Of a stretch of DNA of 64,000 nt, positions 47,878 through 62,313 are shown one piece after another. The notes beneath the pieces were generated by a model. It saw only the letters and a list, made by a program, of their open reading frames with translations. It did not search any database and was not told the DNA's origin. The DNA is from an uncultured Lachnospiraceae bacterium (GTDB taxonomy: Bacteria; Bacillota; Clostridia; Lachnospirales; Lachnospiraceae). The position numbers were made by a program, and so were the translations under genes. Within the stretch, counting starts at the first letter, position 1; every line of letters begins with the position of its first letter. The DNA is taken from NCBI GenBank assembly GCA_902779575.1, contig CACZBW010000006.1, forward strand, positions 227,294 to 291,293. The letters are read 5' to 3'.

Positions 47878-48624
47878 TCAGCGCTCATAATCAAAGGTAT
47901 GCAGAAAAGCCCGTGCTCTCGCTGTCTGAGGGCGCTGGAAGAAGCTTTTCGGATCCGCGCTCTCCTCCATGATCTTTCCCTGCTCCAGAAAAAAGACCCT
48001 GTCCGCAATGGCTTTCGCGAAGGACATCTCATGCGTCACGATCAGCATCGTACTCCCGCTGCGGGCGAGGGACAGGACCACGTCCAGCACTTCCCGGACC
48101 ATCTCGGGATCGAGCGCCGCCGTAATCTCATCCAGAAGAAGCAGCTCCGGATGCATGCACAGAGCCCTTACAATCGCGACCCGCTGTTTCTGGCCTCCGG
48201 AGAGCTGTCTGGGATAGTCGTTTTTTCTGTCTGCCAGGCCAACTCTCTCCAGAAGCTCCATGGCCTCCCTTTCCGCTTCGGCCTTCCCGCGCTTCTGTAC
48301 CTTCCGGGGCGCCAGCGTGATGTTATCCAGGATCGTTTTATGGGGAAAGAGGTCATAGCTCTGGAATACCATGCCGATCTTCTGCCTCATCTGAGGAATA
48401 TTGCCGGCGCCTTTCCGAACGCTCTCCCCATTCAGCAGAACCTGTCCGCCCTGAATGTCCTCCAGGGCATTGATGCAGCGAAGAAGGGTGCTTTTCCCGC
48501 AGCCGGAAGGTCCGATCACGACGATGACCTCCCCTTTCCTGACCGTAAAGGACAGATCATCCAGAACAGTATGACCGCCATAAGATTTATACAGATGCTC
48601 AACTGTCAGCAGCGCCTTTTCCAT
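47878..48624 (-). CDS. Polar amino acid ABC transporter ATP-binding protein
   Basis: A 248-residue ATPase of the GlnQ/TcyC class that drives amino acid import. Walker A GPSGCGKSTLLRC is near 37, the Q-loop MVFQSYDLFPHKT, the signature LSGGQKQRVAIVRAL and Walker B LLLDEITAALD. It is the last gene of the metY-binding protein-permease-permease-ATPase unit. A single-ended copy of the intercistronic repeat (ATCAGTGTTTCC, 48670-48681) lies 46 nt upstream of its start. Confidence 0.95.
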   Translation of the reverse strand: MEKALLTVEHLYKSYGGHTVLDDLSFTVRKGEVIVVIGPSGCGKSTLLRCINALEDIQGGQVLLNGESVRKGAGNIPQMRQKIGMVFQSYDLFPHKTILDNITLAPRKVQKRGKAEAEREAMELLERVGLADRKNDYPRQLSGGQKQRVAIVRALCMHPELLLLDEITAALDPEMVREVLDVVLSLARSGSTMLIVTHEMSFAKAIADRVFFLEQGKIMEESADPKSFFQRPQTARARAFLHTFDYER

Positions 48625-48699
48625 GCTTTTATGTCCGCCTTTTCTATATAATAAAAAAATGCTGCTATAATCAGTGTTTCCTTAGTCCATAGTGCCTTC

Positions 48700-49380
48700 T
48701 CAGTCCCCGGCCCAGCGTTTTTCAAGCCGTGCGGCGAGCCGGCTCACCGGCCAGCAGATCAGAAAATAGAGAAGAAATACTGTCCCGAATACACCGAAAG
48801 CCGCGTTCGGCGAACTCTTCCTGTTCGCTTCTATGATCTGCTGCGCGACTTTCAGGACTTCCACAATTCCGATCATCATGACCAGGCTGGTCGTCTTGAT
48901 CATCCTTGTAATCAGGTTGATGGAAAGAGGCAGCATGCGCCGGATGGTCTGAGGAAGAATCACATACAGATAGAGCGTTTTTTCATCCATGCCCAGGGCC
49001 CGGGCGCTCTCATACTGGATGACCGGAATACTGATCAGTGCCCCCCGCACCAGGTCCCCCATCTCGGCGGTTCCCCAGAAGCTGAAAACAATAATCGCCG
49101 CCGCCTCCGCCTCCAGATTCCAGCCGAACACCCTGGTGGTCCCGAAATAAACCACAAAAAGCAGAACCATCTGCGGCATGATCCGGACCGTCTCCAGCCA
49201 CAGGCGGAAAAAAAACTGCAGCAGCCTGTTTTTAGAGGTCATCAGCATTCCCATCCCTGTACCGAGAACAATGCTGATGCTTACGGAGATCAGGCTCAGC
49301 CGGACCGCCACCCACAGTCCTCCGAGCAGTCTCTGAAAATTGATCCCTTTAAACAGAACGTCAATTCCCAAACTCTGCAT
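48700..49380 (-). CDS. Amino acid ABC transporter permease (second)
   Basis: A 226-residue membrane permease of the HisMQ/TcyL type. Its coupling-loop region reads YESARALGMDEKTLYLYVILPQTIR. The ATG at 49380 is supported by GAGGAGG 7 nt upstream, overlapping the end of the first permease by 20 bp. It forms a heterodimer with that permease. Substrate is inferred from the operon (sulfur amino acid), not from the protein. Confidence 0.92.
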   Translation of the reverse strand: MQSLGIDVLFKGINFQRLLGGLWVAVRLSLISVSISIVLGTGMGMLMTSKNRLLQFFFRLWLETVRIMPQMVLLFVVYFGTTRVFGWNLEAEAAAIIVFSFWGTAEMGDLVRGALISIPVIQYESARALGMDEKTLYLYVILPQTIRRMLPLSINLITRMIKTTSLVMMIGIVEVLKVAQQIIEANRKSSPNAAFGVFGTVFLLYFLICWPVSRLAARLEKRWAGD

Positions 49381-50020
49381 AGCGGAGCCTCCTCTCAATG
49401 ATGCTCCCCGCCACAGAAACCGGCAGAAGCATAATCAGGTAAAAAATCACCAGCAGAGTCAGGCATTCCAGTGTTTTCGCGTACATCCCGATCAGGTCCT
49501 TGGCCGTAAACATCAGGTCCATCAGGCTGATTGTCGAAAAGACGCTGGTTTCCTTCAGAAGAAAAATAATATTTGCCAGGATTCCGGGAATGCTGGACGC
49601 AACCGCCTGGGGAAGGACCACATAGCGGAAGATCTGAAAGCGGGTCATGCCCAGGCTTGCGGCGCTCTCCGTCTGAATCCGCGCGATGCTGTCCAGGCCG
49701 CTGCGGAAGGTCTCCGTCATGTACGCGCCCCCGATCAGCCCAAGCCCGACCCAGCCGCAGACCTCCGCGGAAATCCGGATTCCGATCCTGGGGAGGGCAA
49801 AATACAGAAAAAACAGCTGCACCAGAAGCGGGGTGTTGCGGAACAGTTCCACATAGACGGCCACAATTCTCCTGATGAAGGGGAGCTTCAGCTGCAGAAC
49901 CGCCGCGCAGACAAGGCCCAGAACAAGCGCCAGCAGAACCCCCTGCCAGCCGATCCGCATTGTCAGAAACAATGCGTCCCTGTACAGGGGCAGATAAGAT
50001 TTCATTACCTCCGGATCCAT
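49361..50020 (-). CDS. Amino acid ABC transporter permease (first)
   Basis: A 219-residue permease with about five membrane segments. It has the conserved FRNTPLLVQLFFLYFALP and the ATPase-contact loop ASLGMTRFQIFRYVVLPQA. The ATG at 50020 (MDPEVMKSYLPLY) is chosen because GAGAGG is about 6 nt upstream and a hairpin (50053-50077) precedes it; a start at 50095 would put that hairpin inside the gene. It overlaps the second permease by 20 bp, showing coupling. Confidence 0.92.
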   Translation of the reverse strand: MDPEVMKSYLPLYRDALFLTMRIGWQGVLLALVLGLVCAAVLQLKLPFIRRIVAVYVELFRNTPLLVQLFFLYFALPRIGIRISAEVCGWVGLGLIGGAYMTETFRSGLDSIARIQTESAASLGMTRFQIFRYVVLPQAVASSIPGILANIIFLLKETSVFSTISLMDLMFTAKDLIGMYAKTLECLTLLVIFYLIMLLPVSVAGSIIERRLRYAEFGN

Positions 50021-50052
50021 GATCAGCCTCTCCCTCTTGTCTGTCCACGGAA

Positions 50053-50077
50053 GACAGCCGGATAATCTCCGGCTGTC
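50053..50077 (-). promoter_or_regulatory. Intercistronic hairpin after the binding-protein gene
   Basis: A perfect 10 bp stem GACAGCCGGA/TCCGGCTGTC with a 5-nt loop and no T-run, between the binding protein and its permeases. Such hairpins commonly protect the upstream message, raising binding-protein output over permease output. Confidence 0.6.
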
Positions 50078-50188
50078 AATCCAGTCCTTCTTCACTTCTT
50101 TCTGTGCTGCCGGACAATTCCCACCCGGTTGCTGCCCTGCAGGTTACTATGCTTAAGATTCTCCGTCTGATAATTATTCAGGCTTCTT

Positions 50189-51073
50189 TCAGGCTTCCGT
50201 TTCCGCCTCTTCTTCTCCCGCGATCACGCCTCCTTCGACAACCAGCGTGTCTTCGTAGTCCGCGCCGTAGGTGGAAAGGAGAGTTTCTTCATAATCCTGA
50301 TGGAAAAAGGCTTCCTCTCCAAGCGCTTTGATCTCCTCGTTCAGCCAATTCAGAAGGCTTTCATTTCCTTTTGTGACCGCCGGGGCGATGGTATCGGCGC
50401 TGCCGAGAGACGGGATTCCAACCACAAAGCCTTCGTTTTCGATGGCAAAGGCGATTACCTCCGTGTTGTCATTTGCCCAGGCATCCGCGTTTCCGTTCTC
50501 AAGTGCCGTTTTGGCTTCCGCGTACGCATCGTATTTCTGCAGCCTGATCTCAGGATTATTCTTCTCCAGATAAGTCTCGGCCGTAGTTCCGGAGATTACA
50601 ATCACCTGCTGGTCTTCGCCGATCTCATCCAGGCTTTCAATCACGGCGTCCTCCGGGGAGACAACGCCCAGAGCCACATTCATATACGGCAGGGCAAAGT
50701 CGACTTCCTCAGCCCGCTCCTCGGTTACCGTAAAATTGGCAAGGATGATATCCACTTTTCCGGTCTGGAGATATTCGATCCGGTTGGCAGCCTCCGTGGA
50801 AACATATTCGATCTCCACCCCGAGATCTTCCCCGATCCGTCTTGCGAAATAAACGTCATATCCCTGATATTCCCCGTATTCATCCACATATCCGAAGGGA
50901 CTCTTGTCCGAGAACACGCCGATTCGGACGCTTCCGCTCTCCTGAATCTCCTCCACTGTACGATATACGGCATTCTCGTCCGCAAGCGCCGGGATGGTCC
51001 CTGTAAGAAGCGCTGCAGCTCCGATCAACGCCGCGGCGGATTTTGCGATCCTGTTTTTTCTGATTCCTGACAT
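50189..51073 (-). CDS. Amino acid ABC transporter substrate-binding protein
   Basis: A 294-residue extracellular solute-binding protein of family 3. It has a signal peptide (cleavage likely after PALA near 31) and no lipobox Cys. The ligand-binding order is seen in VRIGVFSDKSPFGYVDEYGEYQG, the YDVYFARRIGEDLG helix, DIILANFTVTEERAEEVDFA and the hinge VISGTTAETYLE. An acidic Glu-rich tail ends the chain. It lies directly behind metY (30 bp), so cystine, methionine or a related sulfur compound is the likely ligand; this is inference from context. Confidence 0.92.
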   Translation of the reverse strand: MSGIRKNRIAKSAAALIGAAALLTGTIPALADENAVYRTVEEIQESGSVRIGVFSDKSPFGYVDEYGEYQGYDVYFARRIGEDLGVEIEYVSTEAANRIEYLQTGKVDIILANFTVTEERAEEVDFALPYMNVALGVVSPEDAVIESLDEIGEDQQVIVISGTTAETYLEKNNPEIRLQKYDAYAEAKTALENGNADAWANDNTEVIAFAIENEGFVVGIPSLGSADTIAPAVTKGNESLLNWLNEEIKALGEEAFFHQDYEETLLSTYGADYEDTLVVEGGVIAGEEEAETEA

Positions 51074-51103
51074 AATTCTTACCTCCCTGATGAAGCGGTC
51101 CGG

Positions 51104-52402
51104 TTATGAGAGAGCGGACACTGCCTGAAAGCCCTGTTCCAGATCCCAGAGGATATCGTCGATATGCTCTGTTCCGATGGAAAGGCGAATGGTATTCTGG
51201 TAAATTCCCGCAGCGGCAAGCTGCTCCGGGGTCATCTCCGCGTGCGTGGTATCATACGGATGAATCACGAGACTCTTTACATCCGCAACATTGGCCAGCA
51301 GGGAAAAGATCTTCAGCGCGTCTATGAAAGCGTAGGCTTCCTTCTGCCCGCCCCGGATATTGAAAGTAAAGATCGAGGCGCCGCCATTCGGGAAATATTT
51401 CTCGTACAGGGCGTGATCCGGATGATCAGGGAGCGAAGGATGATTGACCTTCTCCACCAGTGGATGTCCCGCCAGGTACTCCACTACTTTCTTTGTATTC
51501 TCCGCGTGTCGGTCCAGGCGGAGGGAAAGCGTCTCCAGGCCCTGAAGAAGGAGCCAGGCGTTGAACGGCGAGATTGCGGCGCCGGTATCCCTGAGGAGAA
51601 TCGCGCGGATGTAGGTCACATATGCAGCCGGCCCGGCCGCCTGGACGAAGGAAACTCCGTGATAGCTCGGATTCGGTTCCGTAAACTGCGGATATTTGCC
51701 CGAAGCGGCCCAGTCAAACTTTCCGCTGTCCACAATAATGCCGCCGAGGGTCGTGCCGTGGCCGCCAATGAATTTAGTGGCGGAATGAACCACGATATCC
51801 GCGCCGTGCTCAATCGGCCGGATCATATACGGTGTTCCGAACGTATTGTCAATCACAAGCGGAATCTTATGCGCATGGGCAATTGCGGCGATGGTGTCAA
51901 TATCCGGGATATCCGAATTCGGATTGCCCAGGGTCTCGATAAACACGGCTTTTGTCTTTTCATTGATCGCGCTTTCGATCTCGTCCGGATTCTGCGCGTC
52001 CACGAAAGCCGTACTGATTCCGTAAGCCGGAAGGGTGTGGTCCAGGAGGTTATAGCTGCCTCCGTATATGGTCTTCTGCGCTACGACATTGTCCCCCGCT
52101 CCTGCCAGGGCAAGGATGGAATAAGTGACCGCCGCCGCGCCCGCCGAAACGGCCAGAGCTCCGACGCCGCCTTCCAGAGCCGCTACTCTCTCCTCAAGAA
52201 CGCCCTGGGTGGAATTGGTCAGCCTGCCGTAGATATTGCCGGCATCCCGCAGATTAAAACGGTCCGCCGCATGCTGCGCGCTGTGGAAGACATAGGATGT
52301 CGTCTGATAGATCGGCACCGCCCTGGAATCCGTAACCGGATCCGCCTGTTCCTGACCGACGTGAAGCTGCAGCGTTTCGAATTTGTACTTGTGATCACTC
52401 AT
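51104..52402 (-). CDS. metY: O-acetylhomoserine sulfhydrylase (MetY)
   Basis: A PLP enzyme that makes homocysteine from O-acetylhomoserine and sulfide (or methionine with methanethiol). The 432-residue chain has the subgroup start FETLQLHVGQEQADPVTDSRAVPIYQ in the Cys/Met metabolism PLP family. The PLP lysine is in HSATKFIGGHG near 208, and EHIDDILWDLEQGF is at the C-terminus. It is the first full gene of the sulfur amino acid operon and is preceded by a promoter, a Met/Cys-rich leader frame and a terminator (52545-52814). No SAM or T-box riboswitch was seen. Confidence 0.95.
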   Translation of the reverse strand: MSDHKYKFETLQLHVGQEQADPVTDSRAVPIYQTTSYVFHSAQHAADRFNLRDAGNIYGRLTNSTQGVLEERVAALEGGVGALAVSAGAAAVTYSILALAGAGDNVVAQKTIYGGSYNLLDHTLPAYGISTAFVDAQNPDEIESAINEKTKAVFIETLGNPNSDIPDIDTIAAIAHAHKIPLVIDNTFGTPYMIRPIEHGADIVVHSATKFIGGHGTTLGGIIVDSGKFDWAASGKYPQFTEPNPSYHGVSFVQAAGPAAYVTYIRAILLRDTGAAISPFNAWLLLQGLETLSLRLDRHAENTKKVVEYLAGHPLVEKVNHPSLPDHPDHALYEKYFPNGGASIFTFNIRGGQKEAYAFIDALKIFSLLANVADVKSLVIHPYDTTHAEMTPEQLAAAGIYQNTIRLSIGTEHIDDILWDLEQGFQAVSALS

Positions 52403-52544
52403 GATATTCTCCCTTCCATTCCTTCCGGATCTCTTCGGCGCTTATTCCGCCCCTGTTTTTTCATCGTCTGTTTCCCTCAGCAGAACAGTTTCCGCGATTC
52501 TCTCAGGCATCCTGCAGCCAGGCTGCCCGATGCCGGCAGTCATC

Positions 52545-52572
52545 AAAAAAGGGAGGCACCTCTGTGCCCCCC
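52545..52572 (-). terminator. Leader terminator (attenuator) upstream of metY
   Basis: On the minus strand GGGGGGCAC, loop AGAG, GTGCCTCCC, then six T: a 9 bp stem with one G-U pair. It lies after the leader frame and 140 nt before the metY start, so transcription of the whole operon must pass it. Its 3' arm GGTGCCTCCC can pair with GGTGGGCACC inside the leader frame (52678-52687). Confidence 0.88.
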
Positions 52573-52617
52573 TGCGGACTGTTCCTGACATATCCTTTCA
52601 CAGCTGTAAATTACAGC

Positions 52618-52728
52618 TTATGCCGGACGACGGAGAAGCACTTTTTTCTGCATACGGAAAACAGACATCATACACATGGTGCCCACCATCTCACACATAT
52701 TCATGACCGTATTCCTTACAGACTTCAT
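52618..52728 (-). CDS. Methionine/cysteine-rich leader peptide, 36 residues
   Basis: A short frame starting at 52728 with AAAGGAGGAG 5-6 nt upstream, one of the strongest ribosome sites in the window. It begins MKSVRNTVMNMCEMVGTMCM and contains eight Met and two Cys in 36 residues, clustered at residues 9-26, then a basic end. A 17-nt palindrome AGCTGTAATTTACAGCT (52602-52618) overlaps its stop codon, and the intrinsic terminator follows. It sits between a consensus promoter and metY. The composition and layout are those of an attenuation leader peptide sensing charged tRNA-Met or tRNA-Cys. It could instead be a functional small protein. Confidence 0.7.
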   Translation of the reverse strand: MKSVRNTVMNMCEMVGTMCMMSVFRMQKKVLLRRPA

Positions 52729-52785
52729 AATGACTCCTCCTTTCCCTTTCATCCATTTCTTATTTTTCCTACCTGTTTGATAGGT

Positions 52786-52814
52786 AATATACACCGGCTG
52801 ATCCGCATTGTCAA
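52786..52814 (-). promoter_or_regulatory. Promoter of the metY-ABC operon
   Basis: On the minus strand TTGACA (52809-52814), 17 nt, TATATT (52786-52791). Just downstream, TACCTATCAAACAGGTA (52769-52785) is an inverted repeat over the start site that could be an operator for a cysteine-type repressor. The leader frame follows about 50 nt after the expected start. Confidence 0.8.
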
Positions 52815-52858
52815 CTGTTTTTTACAGAAATATCATTTCATTCTTTTCTGACAAACTT

Positions 52859-52893
52859 ACTGCCCGGACAGAACAGTTTTCTGCCCGGGCAGT
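52859..52893 (-). terminator. Hairpin after the histidine phosphatase gene
   Basis: Arms ACTGCCCGG and CCGGGCAGT with a 17-nt loop, just past the phosphatase stop. The T-run is poor, so termination efficiency is uncertain. Confidence 0.55.
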
Positions 52894-52905
52894 CCGGAAG
52901 CTGTT

Positions 52906-53478
52906 TTACTTTTTCCCCAGATATCTGTGTCCGCCGCTGTCTGATTCAAAGACGCGGATCTCACAATTGTGCGGTTTCGGGCGCCAGCATATCCCGTTCT
53001 TCCGGTCCGCCAGATATCCGCAGAGTGCCCGCATGATGCCGCCGTGGCAGGCCACCAGGACTTTCCCGCAGCCTTTCTTCTCCAGCTCCTTCAGAAAATC
53101 CGAACTCCGGCGAACCAGGGACTCCACGCTTTCCACCCCTGCCGGGGCCGGGAAGATCTCGGGAAAGGCCCAGTAGAGGGTCATGGCCGGACCCAGCATC
53201 CAGTACTTCCTGCGCTCATATCTGCCGAAATCCGCCTCGATAATCCGCGGATCCGTTATGACAGCTTCTTTCTCCACACCCCCGATGATGGAAGCGGTCA
53301 GAACTGCCCTCTGCAGAGGACTTGCGTAAACCGCGTCGAAACGGATTTCCCCGATCCGTTCTCTGGCTTCCTGTGCCTGGAGAATCCCGGTTTCATTCAG
53401 CGGTTCATCCGTTAGCCCCTGCATCAGGTGGGCCTTGTTCAGCTTGGTCTGCCCGTGCCGCGTTATCCATATTTCCAT
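52906..53478 (-). CDS. Histidine phosphatase family protein
   Basis: A 190-residue phosphatase/phosphoglycerate-mutase-like enzyme. The catalytic RHGQT is at residues 7-11, followed by LTDEPLNETG, VYASPLQRAVLTA and the second catalytic His in VACHGGIMRAL. Likely a broad phosphatase; the substrate is unknown. The ATG at 53478 is chosen because RHG normally lies within the first ten residues and GGGGA is 6-7 nt upstream. A longer frame would add 56 unrelated residues. A single-ended intercistronic repeat (53506-53516) lies 28 nt upstream. Confidence 0.88.
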   Translation of the reverse strand: MEIWITRHGQTKLNKAHLMQGLTDEPLNETGILQAQEARERIGEIRFDAVYASPLQRAVLTASIIGGVEKEAVITDPRIIEADFGRYERRKYWMLGPAMTLYWAFPEIFPAPAGVESVESLVRRSSDFLKELEKKGCGKVLVACHGGIMRALCGYLADRKNGICWRPKPHNCEIRVFESDSGGHRYLGKK

Positions 53479-53542
53479 TTCATTTCCCCTGTACTCTCTA
53501 TCACAGAAACACTGATTCATTCTTTTTTCAGTCTCAGGGCAC

Positions 53543-54193
53543 TCACGAAGCTCCCGAAAAAGGATCTCCGGCTGCCGGAGCTGTCTTATTCTCCGCTTCT
53601 TTTCTTTGAGCCAGCAGCCAGCCCATAATATGGATTGCCTGCTCAAATTTCCCTTCCGCGATCAGCTCTTCGATTTCCCCGGCCGTATATTTCCGGACAT
53701 TCAGAAACTCCATATCGTCGAGCTTCTGGCCGGAAACCCGCCTGCAGCCGCCGGCTGTAAAAAGATAGGCGTAGTTGTCCGCGAGCGTGGCGTTGGAAGG
53801 AACCGCGAGCAGAAAATGCCAGTCGTCGGAGACATATCCGGTTTCCTCCTGAAGTTCCCGCTTTGCCGCCTTCAGGGCTGCTTCCACATTCTTTCCCGCC
53901 GCATTCCCGTTTCCTGTCCGGTCCGTTTTCTCCACACAGCCTGCGGGAAACTCCGTTGTCACTTTCCGGATCCCCTGACGGAACTGCCTGACGCACAGAT
54001 AATTTCCTTCGGGGTCGGAAGCCACGATGACCACATAATCCCTCCGGCTGTAGCTGTAATATGGCTCATACACGCTCCCGTCCGGAAAGCGGTAGGATGT
54101 CTTCCGGAAATCAATCCACTCATCCTGCACGATATGTTCTGTCTTAAGTTCCTCCCATTCGAGAGGGTCCTTTTTCCTGTTTTCTTCCGTCAT
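53543..54193 (-). CDS. NUDIX hydrolase (ADP-ribose pyrophosphatase-like)
   Basis: A 216-residue NUDIX enzyme that probably hydrolyses ADP-ribose or related nucleotide sugars. EFPAGCVEK is followed by AAKRELQEETGY, the REUxEExGU core of the Nudix box. The first half of the box is stretched by an unusual ~14-residue insert (DRTGNGNAAGKNVE). The N-terminal EHIVQDEWIDFRKTSYRFPDG is typical of the ADP-ribose group. The start at 54193 has no strong competitor. It lies in a row with the histidine phosphatase, both house-cleaning enzymes. Confidence 0.85.
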   Translation of the reverse strand: MTEENRKKDPLEWEELKTEHIVQDEWIDFRKTSYRFPDGSVYEPYYSYSRRDYVVIVASDPEGNYLCVRQFRQGIRKVTTEFPAGCVEKTDRTGNGNAAGKNVEAALKAAKRELQEETGYVSDDWHFLLAVPSNATLADNYAYLFTAGGCRRVSGQKLDDMEFLNVRKYTAGEIEELIAEGKFEQAIHIMGWLLAQRKEAENKTAPAAGDPFSGAS

Positions 54194-54223
54194 TTTACGA
54201 TTCCTCTGCGCATCAGCGCCGTC

Positions 54224-54799
54224 TCACCCCATTTTTTTATAGATCGTCATCTTCACTTCCCGTCCGCGGATACTCACCTTTACTTCATCCGCTATATGGG
54301 TGACAACGGATTTTTCCAGTTCATCCCAGTCCCGGACCGCGCCCTCGCGATTCGCTTCCACGCCGGCCTGAAGGTCTGCCCGGTATGCGTTCATGGACCA
54401 GGAGAGGTCGCTGCTCATGCCTTCCGCGGAAAGATCCATGGGAACCGGCATGCTGTCCAGCGGATCAAAGAAAGCCCGGATTCTGCCCATAATTCCCCTG
54501 GCCGCCTCATTCTTCCCGCTGGTGGAAGCGGCAAGAAGTTTCTCCCGTTTGTCAAAGTCCACATAAGTCACGACCTTAAGGCAGATGCGGAAATCATTTC
54601 CGTCACTCTCAATCCAGAAGCTGCCCTCTGCCTGACCTGTAATGGCACGCATCATTCCGAGGGTTTCTTCCGTCAGAAGTCTTAAGTGAAGCGCGTCCCG
54701 GTGCTCCAGTTCCCTGTACTGCGCCGCTTTATCCGCCTGCAGCAGAGCTTCGTCCATCCTGCCGCCGTCATTCGAAATCACAATTACGTCTGTTTTCAT
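54224..54799 (-). CDS. Conserved-looking hypothetical protein
   Basis: A 191-residue soluble protein starting MKTDVIVISNDGGRMDEALL. It is rich in charged helices and has a central EGSFWIESDGNDFRICLKV strand pair and the stretch REKLLAASTSGKNEAARG. No signal peptide or membrane segment. Some features (helix with LTEETLGMMRAIT, then strands) recall the histidine-kinase-like fold of anti-sigma proteins, but the ATP-binding boxes are not visible, so I do not assign a function. The ATG at 54799 is preceded by GGAGGCGGAAGGA. It is directly upstream of the NUDIX gene. Confidence 0.6.
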   Translation of the reverse strand: MKTDVIVISNDGGRMDEALLQADKAAQYRELEHRDALHLRLLTEETLGMMRAITGQAEGSFWIESDGNDFRICLKVVTYVDFDKREKLLAASTSGKNEAARGIMGRIRAFFDPLDSMPVPMDLSAEGMSSDLSWSMNAYRADLQAGVEANREGAVRDWDELEKSVVTHIADEVKVSIRGREVKMTIYKKMG

Positions 54800-54960
54800 T
54801 CCTTCCGCCTCCAAACAAAGGATGAAGAGGATCACCAGGACCCTCCATCCGGAAATAGATCTTTTTCTGTACTTCTACACGATACCACATTTGCGGAAAC
54901 TGCTCCACTGCCTTTTTAGCCCGCCTTTATACAGCGCGCCGGTTCTGCCGGCAGGCATGG

Positions 54961-54989
54961 AAAAAGCCGGAACCTTTTCAGGTCCCGGC
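54961..54989 (-). terminator. Intrinsic terminator after the ECF operon
   Basis: On the minus strand GCCGGGACCT, loop GAAA, AGGTTCCGGC, then TTTTT: a 10 bp stem with one G-T pair, about 30 bp past the DUF4097 stop. Confidence 0.92.
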
Positions 54990-55019
54990 GAATCCATTCC
55001 GCCCCCGTAAAACGCGCAT

Positions 55020-55922
55020 TTACTGCCCGATGCTCTGTTTTTCAAGAATGTTCACATTTCCGGCGGAGATATCAATATCCAGTTTTGCCTTGCCTTCCCC
55101 GAAGATATATGTTTTTCCCTGCTTCTGGAAAGGAATGTCACTGTTCAGGCTGCCGGCGGAGATATCGGCTTTCATTTTGAAATTCGCGTCGGAAGGCAGT
55201 TTCAGCTCCAGGCTCCCCGCGCTGATATCGATCTCTCCGGAATCAAAGGACGTCAGCTCTCCTTTTACAGACCCGGCAGAGACATCAATGTCCATGCTGC
55301 CGATCCCGGCAGCGCTGAACTCCACGCCGCCTGCGGAACTGTCTATTTCAAGTTTTTCGATCTCGCCGGCTTCCAGACTGATATCGCCGGCGGAAAAATC
55401 AAGATCCATCGTCTTTACCGGATCCTCCGTGCGGATCACGGCGTCTCCGGCAGAGCAGTCCATCTCCAGATACTCTGCACTGACTGCGGTATTCACATCT
55501 CCCGCGGAGGAGTCAATCTCAAGCTTCTCCAGTCTGCTGTCTTCCGGCAGGGTTACGGTAAGATGCTTGTTCAGACTCTTCCCGAAATGGAAAAAGCTTT
55601 TCACGGAAGAATACTTAATGTAAAGCGTCGACCCGCTCAGATACCAGCAGAGCCTTTCCTCCTCGGGAATCTCTTTTTCTGAACTTTCCTCAATCAGAAG
55701 AGAGCTGCCTTCCCCGCAGATTACATCAATATCCCCTGCCGACCAGTCGATGCAGACAGCGCTGACCGCATCCTCTATCACGGCGTTTCCCTTCTCCCAG
55801 CTGCGGACGTCCGGAAGGCCCTTGATATCCTTCCATGCCGCGGATACCGGACGCGCAAGGCTGACCGCGCCGATCGAAAGAGCAATCATTCCAAAAACTG
55901 CCGCTGTAAGATTCTTCTTCAT
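55020..55922 (-). CDS. DUF4097 beta-repeat exported protein
   Basis: A 300-residue protein with a signal peptide (first ~30 residues). It is built of repeated strands of the type LEIDSSAGDVN, MDLDFSAGDIS, MDIDVSAGSVKG and IDISAGSLELK, at least eight turns of the D-x-S-A-G pattern. This is the DUF4097 right-handed beta-helix-like fold, often paired with anti-sigma or PspC-type envelope stress systems. It likely acts outside the membrane. Its ATG overlaps the anti-sigma stop (AATGA), and GGAGG lies upstream. It is the third gene of the ECF operon, so probably under its control. Confidence 0.85.
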   Translation of the reverse strand: MKKNLTAAVFGMIALSIGAVSLARPVSAAWKDIKGLPDVRSWEKGNAVIEDAVSAVCIDWSAGDIDVICGEGSSLLIEESSEKEIPEEERLCWYLSGSTLYIKYSSVKSFFHFGKSLNKHLTVTLPEDSRLEKLEIDSSAGDVNTAVSAEYLEMDCSAGDAVIRTEDPVKTMDLDFSAGDISLEAGEIEKLEIDSSAGGVEFSAAGIGSMDIDVSAGSVKGELTSFDSGEIDISAGSLELKLPSDANFKMKADISAGSLNSDIPFQKQGKTYIFGEGKAKLDIDISAGNVNILEKQSIGQ

Positions 55923-56887
55923 TTTTTCTTCCTCCCTGTAAAAGATGAGCAGATAAATATGATTCCCAGAACACACCCTGAAAGCAGGATGGTCCATTTC
56001 ACATTGCCGTCAATTGTTTTATGATTCCAGGATCCCGGTGAAAATACCGGCCAGGCCTGCCTGTATCCGGTGAGCGCCAGCATGAGCTTGTCCGCCGCAA
56101 ACAGAAAGCCTCCTGAAAGGATCAGGCAGACGCCTGCCCTGAATCTGCTGTTATAAGGCAGATAGCGGATAATGGCAAACAGAAGCCAGAAAAAGATCAG
56201 AAGCGGCGCCGAGACCGCCAGTGCGGTCGGTCCGTAAGCCGGATCCTTCACATATATGCCTATGCAGATCATCATGAGCAGATACAGCACGGTCACCGCC
56301 GCCATATAGATCAGTCCTTTCCGCTCTCCTACATACGCCTGCAGCGCCCTGCTGCGGAGCGCAAACGGCAGAAAGAGTACGCTTAATCCGAAGAGTACGG
56401 CGGACGAGGCGACAAAAAACCAGTTTCCGCGGGTATAGATACAGCAGACGGCGAGCAGCAGAATCAGGCTGCCAGTTCCAAGTCCGAGTGTCCAGAGCCC
56501 TTTCTGATCCGGTACCAGCAGCGGCGTGACCGTCAGCGACGCCGTAAACAGCAGCGCAGCCAGGACGATGAAAAACCAGCTCAGACTCCTGCCGACTGCA
56601 AGATTGACAATTAGGCAGATCAGCACCGGAACCGAAAAGATAACGGAAAGAATCATCCCTACCAGAGCGGACCTTCGTTTGAAATAGCTTCTCTGATGAC
56701 CGATCACATCGGTTCTCTCCTGTTCCAGCTGTTTTTCCAGACCGGAATCCTGCATCTGCTTAAGAAGCTTCGTGCAGTCCGGGCAGCCGGACAGATGTTC
56801 GCGGATCATTTCCCTGCTTGTTTCGCTGCATACATCATCGATGTACAGCGGAAGGAGATCCTGTACGATCTCACAGTTCTTATTCAT
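55919..56887 (-). CDS. Zinc-finger anti-sigma factor-like membrane protein
   Basis: A 322-residue protein. The N-terminus has C5, C20 and the ZAS-type H31-x3-C35-x2-C38 cluster (EHLSGCPDCTK), the sigma-binding zinc domain of anti-sigma factors. After a coiled segment come about eight hydrophobic segments (from residue ~75 to the end), more than the single helix of classical anti-sigmas, so it may itself sense the envelope. The start at 56887 overlaps the sigma gene end by 8 bp and has GGGAG upstream. The gene order sigma, anti-sigma, DUF4097 supports the role. Confidence 0.82.
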   Translation of the reverse strand: MNKNCEIVQDLLPLYIDDVCSETSREMIREHLSGCPDCTKLLKQMQDSGLEKQLEQERTDVIGHQRSYFKRRSALVGMILSVIFSVPVLICLIVNLAVGRSLSWFFIVLAALLFTASLTVTPLLVPDQKGLWTLGLGTGSLILLLAVCCIYTRGNWFFVASSAVLFGLSVLFLPFALRSRALQAYVGERKGLIYMAAVTVLYLLMMICIGIYVKDPAYGPTALAVSAPLLIFFWLLFAIIRYLPYNSRFRAGVCLILSGGFLFAADKLMLALTGYRQAWPVFSPGSWNHKTIDGNVKWTILLSGCVLGIIFICSSFTGRKKK

Positions 56888-57371
56888 TCTTTTCTCCCAT
56901 CCTTTCCAGAATTTTCGCTTTTGACCTGTGGAAGGTGACTCTTGCCCAGCTCTCTGTCTTTCCGAAGATCCGGCCGATTTCCCGGAAAGACAGTTCGCCG
57001 AATACCCGCATTTCAAACACTTCCCGATAAGGCTCCTCCATCCTGTGCAGTATCGTATGAATCTGCAGGGACATCTCCCTGTCCGATACCGCGGATTCCA
57101 GGCTTTTCCCGGAATCCATCTCTTCAGGCATTTCTCTGAAGCGCTTCTTCCTGCGGCTCTCGTCGACGAAAAGGTTCCTGGCGATGGCGCACAGCCAGGT
57201 AAATTCCCCCGATTCGCCCCGGAAAGCCGTTCTTTCAGACAGCAGAGCCCGGTAAAATGTTTCCTGCGTGATCTCTTCCGCGAGACTGCTGTTCCCGGCA
57301 AGGGTCATGATGAAGGAATATACGCGCATATAATATGTTTCATACATCTTTTCACACAGGATCTTGTCCAC
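56880..57371 (-). CDS. ECF-type RNA polymerase sigma factor
   Basis: A 163-residue sigma-70 of the extracytoplasmic-function class. Region 2 spans YMRVYSFIMTLAGNSSLAEE to WLCAIARNLFVDESRRKKR. Region 4 is the helix-turn-helix MEEPYREVFEMRVFGELSFREIG..TESWARVTFHRSKAKIL. The start is GTG at 57371, with GGCGG-like purines upstream. An ECF-type promoter (57406-57434) lies 35 nt before the start, so it probably drives its own operon. The anti-sigma gene overlaps its end. Confidence 0.92.
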   Translation of the reverse strand: MDKILCEKMYETYYMRVYSFIMTLAGNSSLAEEITQETFYRALLSERTAFRGESGEFTWLCAIARNLFVDESRRKKRFREMPEEMDSGKSLESAVSDREMSLQIHTILHRMEEPYREVFEMRVFGELSFREIGRIFGKTESWARVTFHRSKAKILERMGEKNE

Positions 57372-57405
57372 TTTTTTGTCACCGCCTTTCTTTCAGATCC
57401 ACAGG

Positions 57406-57434
57406 TTAGACGCAGGGAAAACGATTTCGTTACA
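57406..57434 (-). promoter_or_regulatory. ECF-type autoregulatory promoter
   Basis: On the minus strand TGTAACG (57428-57434), 15 nt, CGTCTAA (57406-57412). This is unlike the sigma-A boxes elsewhere but matches the AAC/CGTC pattern of ECF promoters. It lies immediately upstream of the sigma gene. Confidence 0.75.
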
Positions 57435-57453
57435 GAAAAAATAAAAAAATTTC

Positions 57454-57494
57454 AAAAAAAGACAGCGCGCAGCAAAAGCTGCAGATCCGCTGTC
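57454..57494 (-). terminator. Intrinsic terminator after the GH125 gene
   Basis: Outer arms GACAGCG/CGCTGTC enclose an inner CAGC-TTTT-GCTG hairpin, followed by TTTTTTT on the minus strand, 55 bp past the GH125 stop and just before the ECF promoter. Confidence 0.9.
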
Positions 57495-57548
57495 CTCCCG
57501 GAAATGTGCACAGCTGCCGTTCATGGTTCCGCCAGGACGGAATTGATT

Positions 57549-58835
57549 CTACAGTTCCACCCGCACCCCGCATAAATCCAGCAGAAACTCACAGAAGAGG
57601 GAATTCGCCCAGGAGAACCAGGGTCTGGTGTATCTTTCAGGGTTATCCATATCGATGCCCTCGTGCATCATGCCCGTTCCGGCGTCGCTTCCAAGGAGCA
57701 TGTCCAGAATTTCTTTCTTCTCGGATGGATCCTGTGCGGTAAGGCCCTGCATGCAGAGCGCCATCGGCCAGACGACATAGCAGCCGGGCGTGTGCGGGCT
57801 TCCGATCCCCTTCAGTACCTTCCCGGAATAGTAATAGGGATTCCGGTCAGAGAGCATCCATTTTCTTGTGCTCAGGTAAGCCGGGTCCGTCTTCTCACAC
57901 CAGCCGATATAAGGCAGGGAAATCAGGCTCGGCAGCCCGGCGTCGTCCATCACATTGTACTGACCGAAGCCGTCCACTTCATAGGCAAAGATTTTCTCCT
58001 CAAGCCCCGGCAGGCAGGCGTATTTCCGGATCGCCGCGTCCACTTCATCCGCAAGCGCGCCGGCTTCCTTCGCAAGTCCGCCGTCCCGGTACAGCTCTTC
58101 GGCAATCCGGGCGATATTCCGGAGAATGACGCAGGCAAGCATATTCGAAGGAATCAGGTAGCCGTAGGCGCAGGCATCGTCGCTCGGGCGGAAAGCCGAC
58201 CAGATCAGGCCGGTATTCCCCTTTACCAGGGCCCCTTTCCCGCCTCTGGACAGTGTGTCGGTATAGACACAGTTCTCCCTCTCAAATGTATAGGGAGAAT
58301 TGTTCTCGTGGTCCTGCTCCGTCCGGAAAAGCTTCAGAATCAGCCTCACCGCATCCAGCCAGCGCTGGTTGAACTGCCTGCTGCAGCCGGTATTCTTCCA
58401 GATCAGATATGACAGCTGAACCGGAAAACACAGGGAATCAAGTTCATACTTTCGCTCCCACAGATACGGCTTCATGTCCGTCCTGTCCATGCAGAAAAAG
58501 GAACGGCCGTCGTCATTGAATGCGTTGGCATAAGGGTCATAAAGAATGCACTCCATCTGCCTGTCCACAAGCTTTACCAGGATCTCCAGAATCTTCGGGT
58601 CACTGCGGGCAAACAGAATAAAGGGCCTGAGCTGGCAGGCGGAATCCCTCAGCCACATGGCCGGAATATCACCCGTAATCACAAACACAGATCCGTCCGG
58701 CCTGATCCGGATCGTTTTCTCAAGGGTATCGCGCATGCAGTTTGTAAACATATCCGCCAGCCTGCTGTATTCCGGAAATGATCTTCGGATCAGTTCCGCG
58801 GCGTCCTGCAGGCTGAAGTTCTTTCCCTTTTCCAT
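57549..58835 (-). CDS. GH125 exo-alpha-1,6-mannosidase
   Basis: A 428-residue inverting glycosidase of family GH125, which removes terminal alpha-1,6-linked mannose, for example from host or yeast N-glycans. The (alpha/alpha)6 barrel signature VFVITGDIPAMWLRDSACQ is near 52-70, LIWSAFRPSDDACAYGYLIPSNM near 213 and MDDAGLPSLISLPYIGW near 300. No signal peptide, so it acts inside on imported glycans. It precedes the ECF operon and follows the M13 peptidase by 23 bp. No mannose transporter is in the window. Confidence 0.92.
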   Translation of the reverse strand: MEKGKNFSLQDAAELIRRSFPEYSRLADMFTNCMRDTLEKTIRIRPDGSVFVITGDIPAMWLRDSACQLRPFILFARSDPKILEILVKLVDRQMECILYDPYANAFNDDGRSFFCMDRTDMKPYLWERKYELDSLCFPVQLSYLIWKNTGCSRQFNQRWLDAVRLILKLFRTEQDHENNSPYTFERENCVYTDTLSRGGKGALVKGNTGLIWSAFRPSDDACAYGYLIPSNMLACVILRNIARIAEELYRDGGLAKEAGALADEVDAAIRKYACLPGLEEKIFAYEVDGFGQYNVMDDAGLPSLISLPYIGWCEKTDPAYLSTRKWMLSDRNPYYYSGKVLKGIGSPHTPGCYVVWPMALCMQGLTAQDPSEKKEILDMLLGSDAGTGMMHEGIDMDNPERYTRPWFSWANSLFCEFLLDLCGVRVEL

Positions 58836-58857
58836 CCGCTTTCCTCCGCTTTTTCTT

Positions 58858-61368
58858 TCATTCCCCGGCAGGTCCTCTCTCCCAGATCGAAATCCGGTCC
58901 TCCGGCGCCAGATACATCAGGTCTCCTTCTTTCACTCCGTAAGTATCAAGAAATTCATCAAACTGCTGCACCGTCACGTTGATTCGCAGGTGGCTGAGCG
59001 GATGTGAATCATAGAGATCTCCTGCCTCCCAGTTCAGGGTCGACTGCTTCACCCACAGCTGCGCATGTGAGCGGAAAAAGCGGTCGTAATCAAAATCCGG
59101 ATCCTTCTTCGCTATCTCAAGGCAGATGGCAAGACCGCCGATATCCGCCGCAGCCTCCCCCCACTCGATCTCTCCGGGACAGGAGGCGTTCGGAAACGGA
59201 TGGATTCTGTCGAAATAATCCGCTATCTTCCGGGCCCGTTCCATGAACGTGTCATAATCCTCCTCCGGCAGCCAGCCGCTTATAGAATCGTCGGATACCG
59301 GCAGATTGCCGTTCATATCATACCGGATCCCGGTTGGATCAAAACCATGGGTCAGTTCATGACCGATTATCTCCCCGAGTTTCGCCAGTTTTTCCTCTGA
59401 GGGCATATCCGCACGGTAAGTAGAATCCGTCACATAGCCGGCAAAGACAAAAAACTGATTAAAGGTTCCGTAGTAGAATGCATTCGTCTGGCTGCTCGCG
59501 ATCTCCCTGCGCAGGTCATACCGCCACTCGCTCTTCTCCCTGGCCCTGCCGGCAAAAGAAAGATTATGTTTCAGAGTACTGACGGTAAGCCTGGCAAAAG
59601 CATCCAGGAAGGAGCCTTCGGGATCAACTTCCAGATAGGAGGTATCGATCAGCTCATCAGGGGCGAGGATGCAGAAGCTCATATTATCCAGTTTGGCCTG
59701 CGCTGCCCGCTTCCCTTCCCCGGAGAGCCAGTCCTGTCCGAGCAGGATCTCCCGGAAGGTATCCCTGATTTCCTTCGTAAGTTCTGTCAGTTCAGCACGG
59801 ACATCCGGATCCACAAAATAGGTCATATAGGCGTTTTCTTCCGCGACGCCCATCAGCTCCCTGGGGCTGAGCACCTCCCCCGCGTATCCCTCGTTCAGCT
59901 GTTCTGTGAACGCTTCCTCCGAAAGCTCTCCGTTCTCTTCATATCCATTACAGATCTTCATCGCTTCAAGATCCAGGTATGCGCACGCATCCCGGGCAGT
60001 ATGCGCGATCAGATAAGATCTGAGCATGGACAGGTTCTCTTCCGTGTAAAGTTCATCCAGTTTGCGCAGGTAAGCGGGATAAACAATACTGACCCTCCCG
60101 CTGTTCACTCCGCAGGCTTCAAGGAGCTGTCCCAGCGGAAAATTACTGCAAAACTTTACTGCCTCATCAAAAGGCAGAATCAGGTCCGGCTCCTCTTCTT
60201 CACCTTCCTGCGGCCATGCGCAGGGAAGGAGCTGATCCTCCATCCCGCGGCATTCCCTCAGGATCCTCTGAACTTCTTCATCCGGATATCCCGCCCTGCG
60301 CAGGACATGTCCGGCCTGGGACTCAAAATCCGATCTTGTCTCTTCGATCTCTTCCTCGGGCAGCCTCTGAAAATCCCGCGGCAGGATGGAAAAAGAATCC
60401 TCCCGGATCTGGACGATCCAGTCGGCTGTATCTTTCAGATCAAGCGTGACAGAGAGATCCGCCATTCTGCAGAAGGGATTCTCTTCCGGATCTGTCAGAT
60501 ACCCGGTCAGTTCAGGCAGGGAGCTGATCCCGCGGAAGCTGTCCAGGTACTTCCGGACGGGTTCAACCCCTTCCGCGTTCCGCTTCTCCCAGTCTGTGGC
60601 CAGATCCAGATAAGCCCGGACCCGCCGGATATCCTCCCCCTGATAGGTTTCCCGGTCCTCGAGCATTCTTCTTTTGCTGCGGGAAACAGTTTCCTCCAGA
60701 TCCGCCGTCGGACTGCTGATTTCTCCCTGGGAATGGACACGGGTTTCTTTCAGCCAGTCATAATTGGCCGAGAGGTAGAAATCGTTCTCCTCACCCGGAT
60801 TCCCCGTCTGCTGCGCCACCCCGACTACCGTTCCGTCAGGCCACTGTCCGGAATCAACCCACAGCAGCTCATCCCAGTGATTCTCCGGATCCTTCATGAA
60901 CGCTTCCAGACCGCTCCCGGTCAGAACCTCCGCCCTGACAGCGCTCTTAGTGTTCTCCTCATAGCGATAAAGCAGCAGCGGCCTGCCCGTCTCATCTTCC
61001 TGCCGGATCAGCAGAAGCGTGGATTCCTCCCCGTCCGGGCTGCACAGGGTATAGCTCAGGCCGTCCCGGAAGGCACATTCCCGGACCCCCGTCAGATACA
61101 GGATTTCCTCAGGATTGTAATCATATCCTCCGTCCACTGACTGCTCCGCGTCATCGATTTCCGTCCCGGCCGCGGCTGCTCCCGCAGCACCTGCGGCTTC
61201 CGCCTCTGTCTCAATTTCCTCAAAGCCGGCGTTCTCCGCCTCTGTTCCTGCTGCCGCAATCCTGCTGATTTCGACTTCGGTGCCGGGGATCTCCTCCGCC
61301 CCCGCCGGCAGAGAATAAGCGAAAACAGCGGATACAAGAAGCAGGTAAGCAAACCTTCTTTTATTCAC
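58858..61368 (-). CDS. M13-family (neprilysin-like) metallopeptidase, exported
   Basis: An 836-residue zinc endopeptidase. A signal peptide (to about PAGA, residue 24) is followed by an Ala/Glu-rich spacer (25-75) and a lead domain. The peptidase_M13 N- and C-parts come after. The zinc site HELTH lies in IIGHELTHGFDPTG near 676, with the third ligand in WGEAAADIGGLA near 735. The substrate-binding NAFYYGTFNQFFVFAG is also present. It probably acts on extracellular peptides. It lies 23 bp upstream of GH125, both suited to host glycoprotein use. Confidence 0.92.
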   Translation of the reverse strand: MNKRRFAYLLLVSAVFAYSLPAGAEEIPGTEVEISRIAAAGTEAENAGFEEIETEAEAAGAAGAAAAGTEIDDAEQSVDGGYDYNPEEILYLTGVRECAFRDGLSYTLCSPDGEESTLLLIRQEDETGRPLLLYRYEENTKSAVRAEVLTGSGLEAFMKDPENHWDELLWVDSGQWPDGTVVGVAQQTGNPGEENDFYLSANYDWLKETRVHSQGEISSPTADLEETVSRSKRRMLEDRETYQGEDIRRVRAYLDLATDWEKRNAEGVEPVRKYLDSFRGISSLPELTGYLTDPEENPFCRMADLSVTLDLKDTADWIVQIREDSFSILPRDFQRLPEEEIEETRSDFESQAGHVLRRAGYPDEEVQRILRECRGMEDQLLPCAWPQEGEEEEPDLILPFDEAVKFCSNFPLGQLLEACGVNSGRVSIVYPAYLRKLDELYTEENLSMLRSYLIAHTARDACAYLDLEAMKICNGYEENGELSEEAFTEQLNEGYAGEVLSPRELMGVAEENAYMTYFVDPDVRAELTELTKEIRDTFREILLGQDWLSGEGKRAAQAKLDNMSFCILAPDELIDTSYLEVDPEGSFLDAFARLTVSTLKHNLSFAGRAREKSEWRYDLRREIASSQTNAFYYGTFNQFFVFAGYVTDSTYRADMPSEEKLAKLGEIIGHELTHGFDPTGIRYDMNGNLPVSDDSISGWLPEEDYDTFMERARKIADYFDRIHPFPNASCPGEIEWGEAAADIGGLAICLEIAKKDPDFDYDRFFRSHAQLWVKQSTLNWEAGDLYDSHPLSHLRINVTVQQFDEFLDTYGVKEGDLMYLAPEDRISIWERGPAGE

Positions 61369-61386
61369 AGTCCACTCTCCTTCTGT

Positions 61387-62313
61387 TTAAGGATCCATTC
61401 TTCTGAGCACATTTGCAAGCAGAGCGCCTGAAATGTTATGCCAGACGGAAAACAGGGCGCCCGGAACCGTTGCCATCGCCAGATCCGGAAACGCGCTTCC
61501 GGCAAGAGACGAGGCAAGTCCGGAGTTCTGCATCCCGATCTCTATGGCCAGTGCCTTCTTTTTTGCCACCGGAAGCTTCAGCGTCAGTCCCAGCAGAAAT
61601 CCGGCTGCATATCCGAGTATATTATGCAGGATAACTACAATAAAAACGACAGCTCCTGTCTGAAAAATCCGTTCGGAATTATGGGATACAACAGCAGCAA
61701 CGATCAGGGTGATCGCCGTCACCGAGACAAGCGGCAGCAGCTCCGATACCCGTTCCTTATGTTCCCCCGCGATCCTGTTTATAATTAAGCCAAGCAGGAT
61801 GGGAACAATAACCACCCTGATAATCGAAAAAAACATCCCTGCGGCATCTACTCTGACGGTTGTCCGGAGGAGCAGATATGTAATTGCCGGCGTGAGGACA
61901 GGAGACAGCAGGGTATTGACGCTCGTCATCCCCACAGAAAGCGGCACATCTCCCCCGCTCAGGTAAGTCATCACATTGCTCGCTGTCCCCCCCGGGCATG
62001 TTCCGACAAGAATCACGCCGGCCAGGAGACCTTCTTCCAGGCCAAAAACCCTGCCCAGCCCGAAAGCCAGCAGAGGCATAATGGTAAACTGCGCAAGGCA
62101 GCCGGTCACAATATTCTTCGGCTGTTTGAATACAATTACAAAATCCTCAGGTCTGAGCGTCAGGCCCATGCCGAACATTACGAGCATCAGAAGGTAATTA
62201 ATCCACGAAGTCCGGATCCAGAGGCAGCTTCCGGGGACAAACAGCGCAAGGGCTGCCACCGCCAGCACGATGACAGCCATATACTTTCCGACAAATTCAC
62301 TGATTCTCTTCAT
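61387..62313 (-). CDS. Bile acid:sodium symporter (BASS) family transporter
   Basis: A 308-residue membrane protein with nine or ten segments. Typical BASS patches are MFGMGLTLRPEDF near 45, LVGTCPGGTASNVMTYLSGGDV near 103 and AIEIGMQNSGLASSLA near 258. Members carry bile acids, pantothenate or other organic acids with sodium; substrate unknown. It starts 3 bp after the hydrolase stop, so the two are coupled. The M13 peptidase follows by 18 bp, making a four-gene row with GH125. Confidence 0.9.
   Translation of the reverse strand: MKRISEFVGKYMAVIVLAVAALALFVPGSCLWIRTSWINYLLMLVMFGMGLTLRPEDFVIVFKQPKNIVTGCLAQFTIMPLLAFGLGRVFGLEEGLLAGVILVGTCPGGTASNVMTYLSGGDVPLSVGMTSVNTLLSPVLTPAITYLLLRTTVRVDAAGMFFSIIRVVIVPILLGLIINRIAGEHKERVSELLPLVSVTAITLIVAAVVSHNSERIFQTGAVVFIVVILHNILGYAAGFLLGLTLKLPVAKKKALAIEIGMQNSGLASSLAGSAFPDLAMATVPGALFSVWHNISGALLANVLRRMDP

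Follow-up and report, generated by a model that had tools for sequence, protein, structure and literature searches.

A methionine- and cysteine-codon-rich leader before metY in Lachnospiraceae: a probable translation-coupled attenuator with relatives before other sulfur genes

How is the transcription of a sulfur amino acid operon controlled in an uncultured bacterium of the Lachnospiraceae? In the window, by which we mean the whole stretch of 64,000 nucleotides that was analysed (contig CACZBW010000006.1 of assembly GCA_902779575.1), the question is raised by a short Met- and Cys-rich reading frame and a terminator that stand before metY and a set of four ABC transporter genes. The original prediction, made from the letters alone, was that these elements form a translation-coupled attenuator responding to methionine and cysteine. 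We consider it probable that the window leader is indeed a translation-coupled, trp/his-type transcription attenuator tuned to these two amino acids: frame and terminator recur in four species and are mirrored by a broader family of leaders, but the particular pairing that had been proposed did not stand up. This reading appears well supported by the anatomy, conservation and complementarity of the leader and by its sister classes; from these we infer translation of the frame, stalling of the ribosome, the sign of the response and the amino acids sensed. The parts of the leader and the metY operon, all of them on the minus strand, are given here from the promoter downwards (G001 denotes the genome of the nearest relative):

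52786..52814, minus strand: sigma-70-type promoter TTGACA-17-TATATT, matching the consensus at 11 of 12 positions and conserved in G001
52768..52784, minus strand: operator-like dyad CCTATCAAACAGGTAGG, directly 3' of the -10 box, with the genus consensus CCTAYYARACNRRTAGG
52734..52740, minus strand: Shine-Dalgarno GGAGGAG of the leader frame, which can also pair with segment 2
52618..52728, minus strand: leader reading frame MKSVRNTVMNMCEMVGTMCMMSVFRMQKKVLLRRPA, 36 codons, identical to that of G001 at 33 of 36 residues
52651..52704, minus strand: Met/Cys codon cluster, codons 9-26, with seven Met and two Cys, from the sequence and used in the masking computation
52678..52687, minus strand: segment GGUGGGCACC of the original prediction, which may pair with segment 2 in the window and G001
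52632..52641, minus strand: segment 2, GUGCUUCUCC, the putative antiterminator strand, able to pair with the terminator 5' arm
52564..52572, minus strand: segment 3, the terminator 5' arm GGGGGGCAC, from the sequence
52551..52559, minus strand: segment 4, the terminator 3' arm GTGCCTCCC, from the sequence
52545..52550, minus strand: T run of the terminator, six T, from the sequence
51104..52402, minus strand: metY, O-acetylhomoserine/O-acetylserine sulfhydrylase (TIGR01326, 621.6 bits against a cut-off of 495.1, E 5e-187)
50189..51073, minus strand: ABC transporter binding protein (SBP_bac_3, family match)
49361..50095, minus strand: ABC transporter permease (family match)
48700..49398, minus strand: ABC transporter permease (family match)
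47878..48624, minus strand: ABC transporter ATPase (family match)

The promoter seen in the original prediction, which is the top-scoring promoter-like site of the region, is confirmed at 52814..52786, as is the stem terminator with its six T, GGGGGGCAC-AGAG-GTGCCTCCC-TTTTTT, at 52572..52545. The original reading of the downstream genes as metY and a four-gene amino acid ABC transporter is likewise confirmed, by the TIGR01326 match and by family matches that identify, 3' of metY, one binding protein, a pair of permeases and one ATPase, all of the polar amino acid type. The binding protein is 74% identical over 246 amino acids to one from another species (locus L308), which itself stands behind a leader of its own belonging to the class A described below. 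A 17-nt palindrome that had been noticed over the leader stop is present in the window but is not kept in G001. The RNA of 52402-52785, which had been singled out for folding, is more stable than each of 100 dinucleotide shuffles (z -4.1), and that of 52540-52785 is more stable than each of 200 shuffles (z -4.4), both stretches including the terminator. An Rfam search over window positions 48000-62000 with E values up to 5 returned no riboswitch or T-box at the leader, the sole match being an unrelated chance match at 50834-50890. The spacer between the terminator and metY (52402-52545) contains about 120 bases that are absent from G001, with an inverted repeat GGCATC...GATGCC.

The leader frame runs from an ATG at 52728 to a stop ending at 52618, and the strong ribosome site that had been described for it is present at 52740-52734. 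It contains eight Met codons, including the start, and two Cys codons, all nine of the non-start Met and Cys codons falling within codons 9-26. Nine such codons among 35 correspond to a binomial P of 7e-6 to 4e-5 against an assumed Met+Cys background of 4-5%. This enrichment agrees with the family-based identity of the downstream genes, metY and an amino acid transporter.

When relatives were searched for such frames, as had been suggested at the outset, the window-type Met/Cys frame and terminator were recovered before metY in three other species, namely G001, G271 (locus L140) and G104 (L141), with MetY identities of 90% for G271 and 85% for G104. A Shine-Dalgarno and a putative leader frame are present in all four species, as is a terminator between the frame and metY, that of G271 having only four T. 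The leader of G001 has the same residue as that of the window at 33 of 36 positions (92%), and none of the 18 degenerate codons within codons 10-33 has changed, for which P is 0.0026 at the silent rate of metY (115 of 408 degenerate codons changed between the two). Identity to the leaders of G271 and G104 is only 36%, the invariant residues being mostly within the Met/Cys run. Moreover, AAGTGCTTCTCC is common to the window and L141, but in different reading frames; with its tail thus in another frame in G104, the peptide appears hardly constrained outside the Met/Cys run. These comparisons bear on the idea that the frame encodes a small functional protein, rich in Met and Cys and involved in metal or redox binding, with the terminator as a plain attenuating or processing site. 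The close agreement with G001 and the good Shine-Dalgarno would suit such a protein, but the low identity to the remaining two leaders, the finding that the peptide matches no Pfam or NCBIfam family, and the presence of metY behind the leader in four of four cases make it a very improbable explanation.

The distribution of the window-type leader was followed in the genus and the family. Nineteen genomes of the genus were sampled, 12 of which have this metY: two of these carry the window-type leader (the window's genome and G001), one carries a class A Cys/Met leader (G016), and in the other nine a search upstream of metY found none. The family sample comprised 396 genomes, 299 of them with metY, and upstreams were read for a part of these. 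A profile of the window-type leader gave three real matches in 397 family genomes (the window, G271 and G104), and a protein search with the window leader against 61 genomes gave two real matches and twelve at chance level. In the genera of G271 and G104, five additional metY loci showed no further window-type leader. With four species only, the exact device of the window is therefore rare. Seven further, weak matches to the profile were rejected, as no sulfur gene could be read behind any of them.

To act as an attenuator, the leader would need mutually exclusive RNA pairings. We examined the whole frame against each terminator arm in the four window-type sequences, with the arms set by hand. 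In all four species the segment of the frame that pairs best with the 5' arm falls in codons 29-36, around GUGCUUCUCC in the window and G001, AUGCCCCUCCG in G271 and CAAGUGCUUCUC in G104, with energies of -14.9 (window), -15.8 (G001), -11.9 (G271) and -14.0 (G104) kcal/mol. In none of the four is this pairing stronger than in shuffles (p 0.08-0.55), the values in the same order being 0.55, 0.29, 0.45 and 0.10 for dinucleotide shuffles and 0.28, 0.20, 0.34 and 0.08 for codon shuffles. An automatic scan for terminators and duplexes, which chose the arm differently from the hand-set one at both loci, also gave no pairing signal for the window (L001, z +1.7) or G001 (L002, z +1.1). Judged from sequence, the appearance of AAGTGCTTCTCC in two reading frames and the unchanged codons 10-33 still speak for a pairing of codons 29-36 with the 5' arm, and segment 2 is likely the exact antiterminator strand of the window.

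The original prediction had placed the decisive pairing elsewhere, between GGUGGGCACC within the Met/Cys codons and the terminator 3' arm. In the window this pairing is good (-15.9 kcal/mol, p 0.016 and 0.026 with two kinds of shuffle), but it is not conserved: it is weak in G001 (-11.2 kcal/mol, p 0.25 and 0.48), and the best partners of the 3' arm in G271 (-7.4 kcal/mol, p 0.95) and G104 (-11.8 kcal/mol, p 0.12 and 0.18) are other segments. GGUGGGCACC can pair with segment 2 instead, at -13.7 kcal/mol in the window and G001. A further competitor is the leader's Shine-Dalgarno, which of all the upstream RNA pairs best with segment 2 in each of the four species (-13.9 to -15.2 kcal/mol; -14.2 in the window), some pairing of segment 2 with any Shine-Dalgarno being expected because it is pyrimidine-rich.

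The effect of ribosome position was computed by masking, with the leading edge of the ribosome at A-site +12 and the RNA upstream of it left out. Under this omission, and before the 3' arm exists, the probability of the 2:3 pairing in the window is 0.4 for a stall at M9, 1.0 at codons 10-25, 0.8 at M26, 0.1 at Q27 and 0 at later codons, i.e. the switch falls between codons 26 and 27 and the Met/Cys cluster ends at codon 26. With the upstream RNA likewise omitted, 2:3 forms for stalls at codons 10-26 and is lost from codon 27 in both the window and G001, and is lost near 27-28 in G271 and near 30-31 in G104. In the complete transcript the terminator pairing 3:4 wins at every stall position in the four species (P(3:4) 0.9-1.0); as the terminator is always the more stable once its 3' arm is made, antitermination would have to be kinetic. 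Attenuator switches are usually kinetic. If the Shine-Dalgarno is allowed to pair across the stalled ribosome, its pairing with segment 2 beats 2:3 over a range of stall positions in three species (window, codons 14-26; G001, codons 5-27; G271, codons 14-18), and 2:3 mostly stays ahead in G104; the model is hence weakest on whether the Shine-Dalgarno is occupied or free. G104 also differs from the other three species in that its stop follows segment 2 by ten codons, too far for a terminating ribosome to cover that segment, and a ribosome at this stop allows 2:3 to form (0.47).

We propose that a ribosome would follow RNA polymerase through the leader and, if Met-tRNA or Cys-tRNA were scarce, would stall in codons 9-26. 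Such a stall would leave segment 2 (codons 30-33) free to pair with segment 3, and metY and the transporter would be transcribed. If methionine and cysteine were both plentiful, the ribosome would reach the stop, 11 bases past segment 2 in the window, and would cover segment 2, giving the 3:4 terminator. If there were no translation, segment 2 would pair with the leader's own Shine-Dalgarno, and the terminator would again form. A regulator at the dyad beside the -10 box could provide a second layer of control.

The dyad itself recurs before metY. A consensus built on the metY promoters of the genus, CCTAYYARACNRRTAGG, matches at eight places in the 19 genus genomes, all eight before metY, and CCTA-N9-TAGG occurs over or beside the metY promoter in 92 of 220 metY upstreams, against a mean of 0.85 and a maximum of 3 in mononucleotide shuffles. 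A promoter dyad is visible in eight of the nine leaderless metY-bearing genomes of the genus; inspection by eye did not reveal it in G271. A DNA-binding regulator at the dyad might then be the sole control, with the leader as a relic, and the presence of the dyad before metY in leaderless relatives and in so many upstreams is in line with this. On the other hand, the lack of silent changes in codons 10-33, the terminator between frame and metY in all four species, and the failure to see the dyad in G271 point the other way, and we hold exclusive control by such a regulator to be improbable. Used as a regulon marker in the window's genome, TACCTRTNNNAYAGGTA has one exact site, and its 15 sites with two mismatches compare with 55 for the reversed control, so that no regulon emerges from that search.

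As for riboswitches, an Rfam search of 29 related metY loci at the gathering score found neither a riboswitch nor a T-box at the leaders; one Clostridiales-1 RNA was found at the edge of L019, away from the leader. SAM-I riboswitches were found in 13 of the 19 genus genomes, that is in 13 of 17 besides the window's genome (G000) and G001. They were not found in G000, where 117 of 224 candidates were scored, in G001, where 117 of 161 were scored and which is 83% complete, or in G002, G009, G015 and G017. A leader in the place of a SAM-I riboswitch would fit a change of control, as observed in two related genomes only; G002 is without both riboswitch and leader.

Leader-peptide attenuators of the trp/his/leu type are known from Proteobacteria. 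The window leader resembles them in its short frame led by a Shine-Dalgarno, its codons for the amino acids that would be regulated, its terminator before the operon and its proposed mutually exclusive pairings, and is unlike them in that the codons are for Met and Cys, the host is a member of the Lachnospiraceae, and the leader's own Shine-Dalgarno may pair with the antiterminator strand. A Leu-rich attenuator has reportedly been described in Staphylococcus aureus. For the sulfur amino acid genes of clostridia, the control usually described is by riboswitches, T-boxes or repressors; SAM-I, T-box and CymR-type control of sulfur genes is said to have been treated as a topic in Clostridium perfringens. 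Such control concerns the same pathway as the window leader, at which neither a riboswitch nor a T-box was matched. In bacilli, leader peptides with His codons precede copies of hisS (PMC2965389, in excerpt). The His and Leu leaders of Firmicutes share leader-peptide attenuation with the window, the amino acids and genes being different. In Rhodobacterales, uORFC-8-2 before cysS carries tandem Cys codons and a terminator and has been predicted to act as a ribosome-mediated attenuator (PMC8632094, in excerpt); like the window leader it is a predicted Cys-codon attenuator with a terminator, but it comes from another phylum, precedes another gene and has Cys only. The cysteine leader peptides of Actinobacteria have runs of Cys codons before sulfur genes, as in the window, but with the Cys codons near the stop and a terminator hairpin that is not conserved (PMC1262725, in excerpt). 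By its title, Canestrari et al. 2020, as cited in PMC13236596 (in excerpt), deals with leaderless frames in mycobacteria. Leader-peptide attenuation is thus already known, also in Firmicutes, and other phyla have predicted or known Cys attenuators; searches of open-licence papers turned up no Met/Cys leader attenuator in Clostridia.

Leaders of related content recur before metY in the family at large. The upstreams were taken from 221 loci, with L164 dropped (its metY start was not found by script), 220 of them long enough and 217 distinct; L191 (too short) and three upstreams whose last 100 bases equal those of another were dropped before counting. Defining a leader as an ATG frame of 15-60 codons led by a Shine-Dalgarno, with at least five Met or Cys codons amounting to at least 15%, we found Met/Cys-rich leaders before 45 of the 217 distinct metY genes, against none of 217 on the opposite strand, none of 134 in the next stretch upstream, and a mean of 0.15 (maximum 2) in 20 rounds of dinucleotide shuffles. 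Because the finder needs a Shine-Dalgarno and an ATG, the leader counts are lower bounds. Most of the 45, together with frames with fewer Met and Cys codons, fall into classes.

The leaders of class A mostly share the motif ...M-C-C-R-M-x-x-S-R-A... In 35 loci between L012 and L232, the S-R-A codons and the preceding base (mostly CTCCCGGGCA) lie opposite the 5' arm of the terminator (mostly TGCCCGGGAG). Because the arm was located by CCGGGAG or two variants, the terminator side is predetermined at positions 0-6, and covariation is tested by positions 7-9 alone; the regular expression for the class further demands Arg in the frame, and L122 and L184, which have no terminator core, were left out. 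Covariation between frame and terminator, which the original prediction had proposed as a check, is found in this sister class: at positions 7-9, 93 of 105 pairs are Watson-Crick, compared with 76.6 +/- 2.5 for swapped partners (0 of 2000, kinship being ignored), and substitutions occur in step (G-C and A-T; C-G and T-A; A-T, T-A and G-C). Pairing fails in four loci at position 9 and in two at position 6. The automatic finder placed a terminator behind 28 of the 33 class A loci scanned. When seven class A leaders were modelled, the probability of 2:3 before the 3' arm remained at 0.9-1.0 as far as the codon preceding R-M, then fell to 0.7-0.8 at R and to 0.5 at M, reaching 0 one codon later. 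Without any ribosome, however, class A RNA forms 2:3 as well, with probabilities of 0.90-1.00 before the 3' arm is made and of 0.00-0.99 for the complete transcript, which leaves the return of termination after passage of the ribosome unexplained for this class. The class A core of CGA-ATG and a TCCCGGGCA-like strand does not recur in the window leader, which has CGT-ATG and another segment 2.

A second, class B-like set comprises 34 loci that share a conserved peptide ending in (F/Y/C)-R-x-x-R-M, and four of these loci count as class A too; duplicates are kept in this count (the peptides of L107 and L241, and those of L116 and L124, are identical). Its fullest form, F-x-x-L-V-R-x-N-F-R-x-G-R-M, stands before metY in L065, L107, L118, L128, L133, L205, L235 and others, the R-M often being followed by Cys codons or the stop. 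A terminator was seen behind five of the 25 class B-like loci scanned, and the class B peptide is possibly an arrest peptide. In class C (L110, L116, L124 and L139), a first frame rich in Met, Cys and Trp is followed by a class B frame ending at or just after R-M, with a terminator after the first frame in three of the four loci. Pairing of the frame with the 5' arm beyond that of shuffles was not found in L110, L116 and L124 of class C, nor in L016, L192 and L211.

Across these classes, CGA encodes the Arg before Met in all 35 class A loci and in 32 of the 34 that are class B-like, and a demand on the peptide alone would not fix the codon. The recurrent Arg-Met step nevertheless brings up a different kind of sensor, in which the leader peptide in the exit tunnel would bind a sulfur metabolite (e.g. 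Met, Cys or SAM) and thereby stall the ribosome. The constancy of CGA-ATG and the conservation of the class B peptide, although a terminator was found behind so few of its loci, are favourable to such a nascent-chain sensor; the window-type leader, however, has CGT-ATG, and its tail is in another frame in G104, so that for the window we regard this as unlikely and retain attenuation through Met and Cys codons as the preferred reading.

Class A leaders are also found before genes other than metY. With a profile of 20 class A leaders (profile A1) and a limit of E 0.05, 41 of the 299 family genomes gave a match, the window's genome not being among them. At E up to 1e-3 there are 33 matches, of which 17 lie before metY, in part the source sequences of the profile, and 16 elsewhere; in 13 of these 16 the script found the leader frame again, the exceptions being L313, L319 and L335. 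A looser class A DNA pattern with two mismatches was dropped, being swamped by chance matches. The functions behind the leaders are named from families or by reading. They include a second Cys/Met PLP enzyme (L306, Pfam), a cystathionine-type lyase (L312 by NCBIfam; L313, L330 and L331 by reading), and a cysteine-synthase-type PALP enzyme as the first gene in L332 and the second in L330. Transport is represented by a window-type binding protein in L308, already mentioned, and by reading in L311 and L318, by permease and ATPase genes in L319 (by reading), and by MetQ in L314. In L303 the leader precedes a glycyl radical enzyme of the (2S)-3-sulfopropanediol-dehydratase type, a family call that covers the N-terminal 300 residues only and falls below the whole-protein cut-off, and in L334 a LysR-type regulator followed by a nitrogenase-component-1-type protein. 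Going by these two loci, sulfur scavenging may come under a class A leader too.

Tentatively, then, and with more doubt than for the window leader itself, one might envisage that the Lachnospiraceae run a dispersed sulfur regulon by translation-coupled attenuators, in which Met and Cys codons lie at a fixed distance before the RNA strand that decides termination, CGA-AUG acts as a built-in pause or arrest, and the window leader, from a lineage in which no SAM-I riboswitch was found, is a separate version. Its genes would comprise metY, cystathionine-type lyases, cysteine synthase, cystine-type and methionine transporters, the sulfopropanediol dehydratase and the nitrogenase-like operon. If true, ribosome-sensed Met/Cys attenuation over many genes would represent another RNA logic in a large gut family and would bear on the control of sulfur scavenging in the gut, both in transport and in the use of sulfonates. 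The leaders offer a concrete set for ribosome profiling and reporter tests, and the CGA-AUG core poses the testable question of whether it is a codon pause, an arrest peptide or an RNA element. Among the remaining class A loci, L307 (where a DUF2292 gene comes first) and L333 have glutathione-transferase-like genes by reading, with no family match in the library used, and in L335 the leader precedes a peptidase-like frame followed by a PLP enzyme, again by reading.
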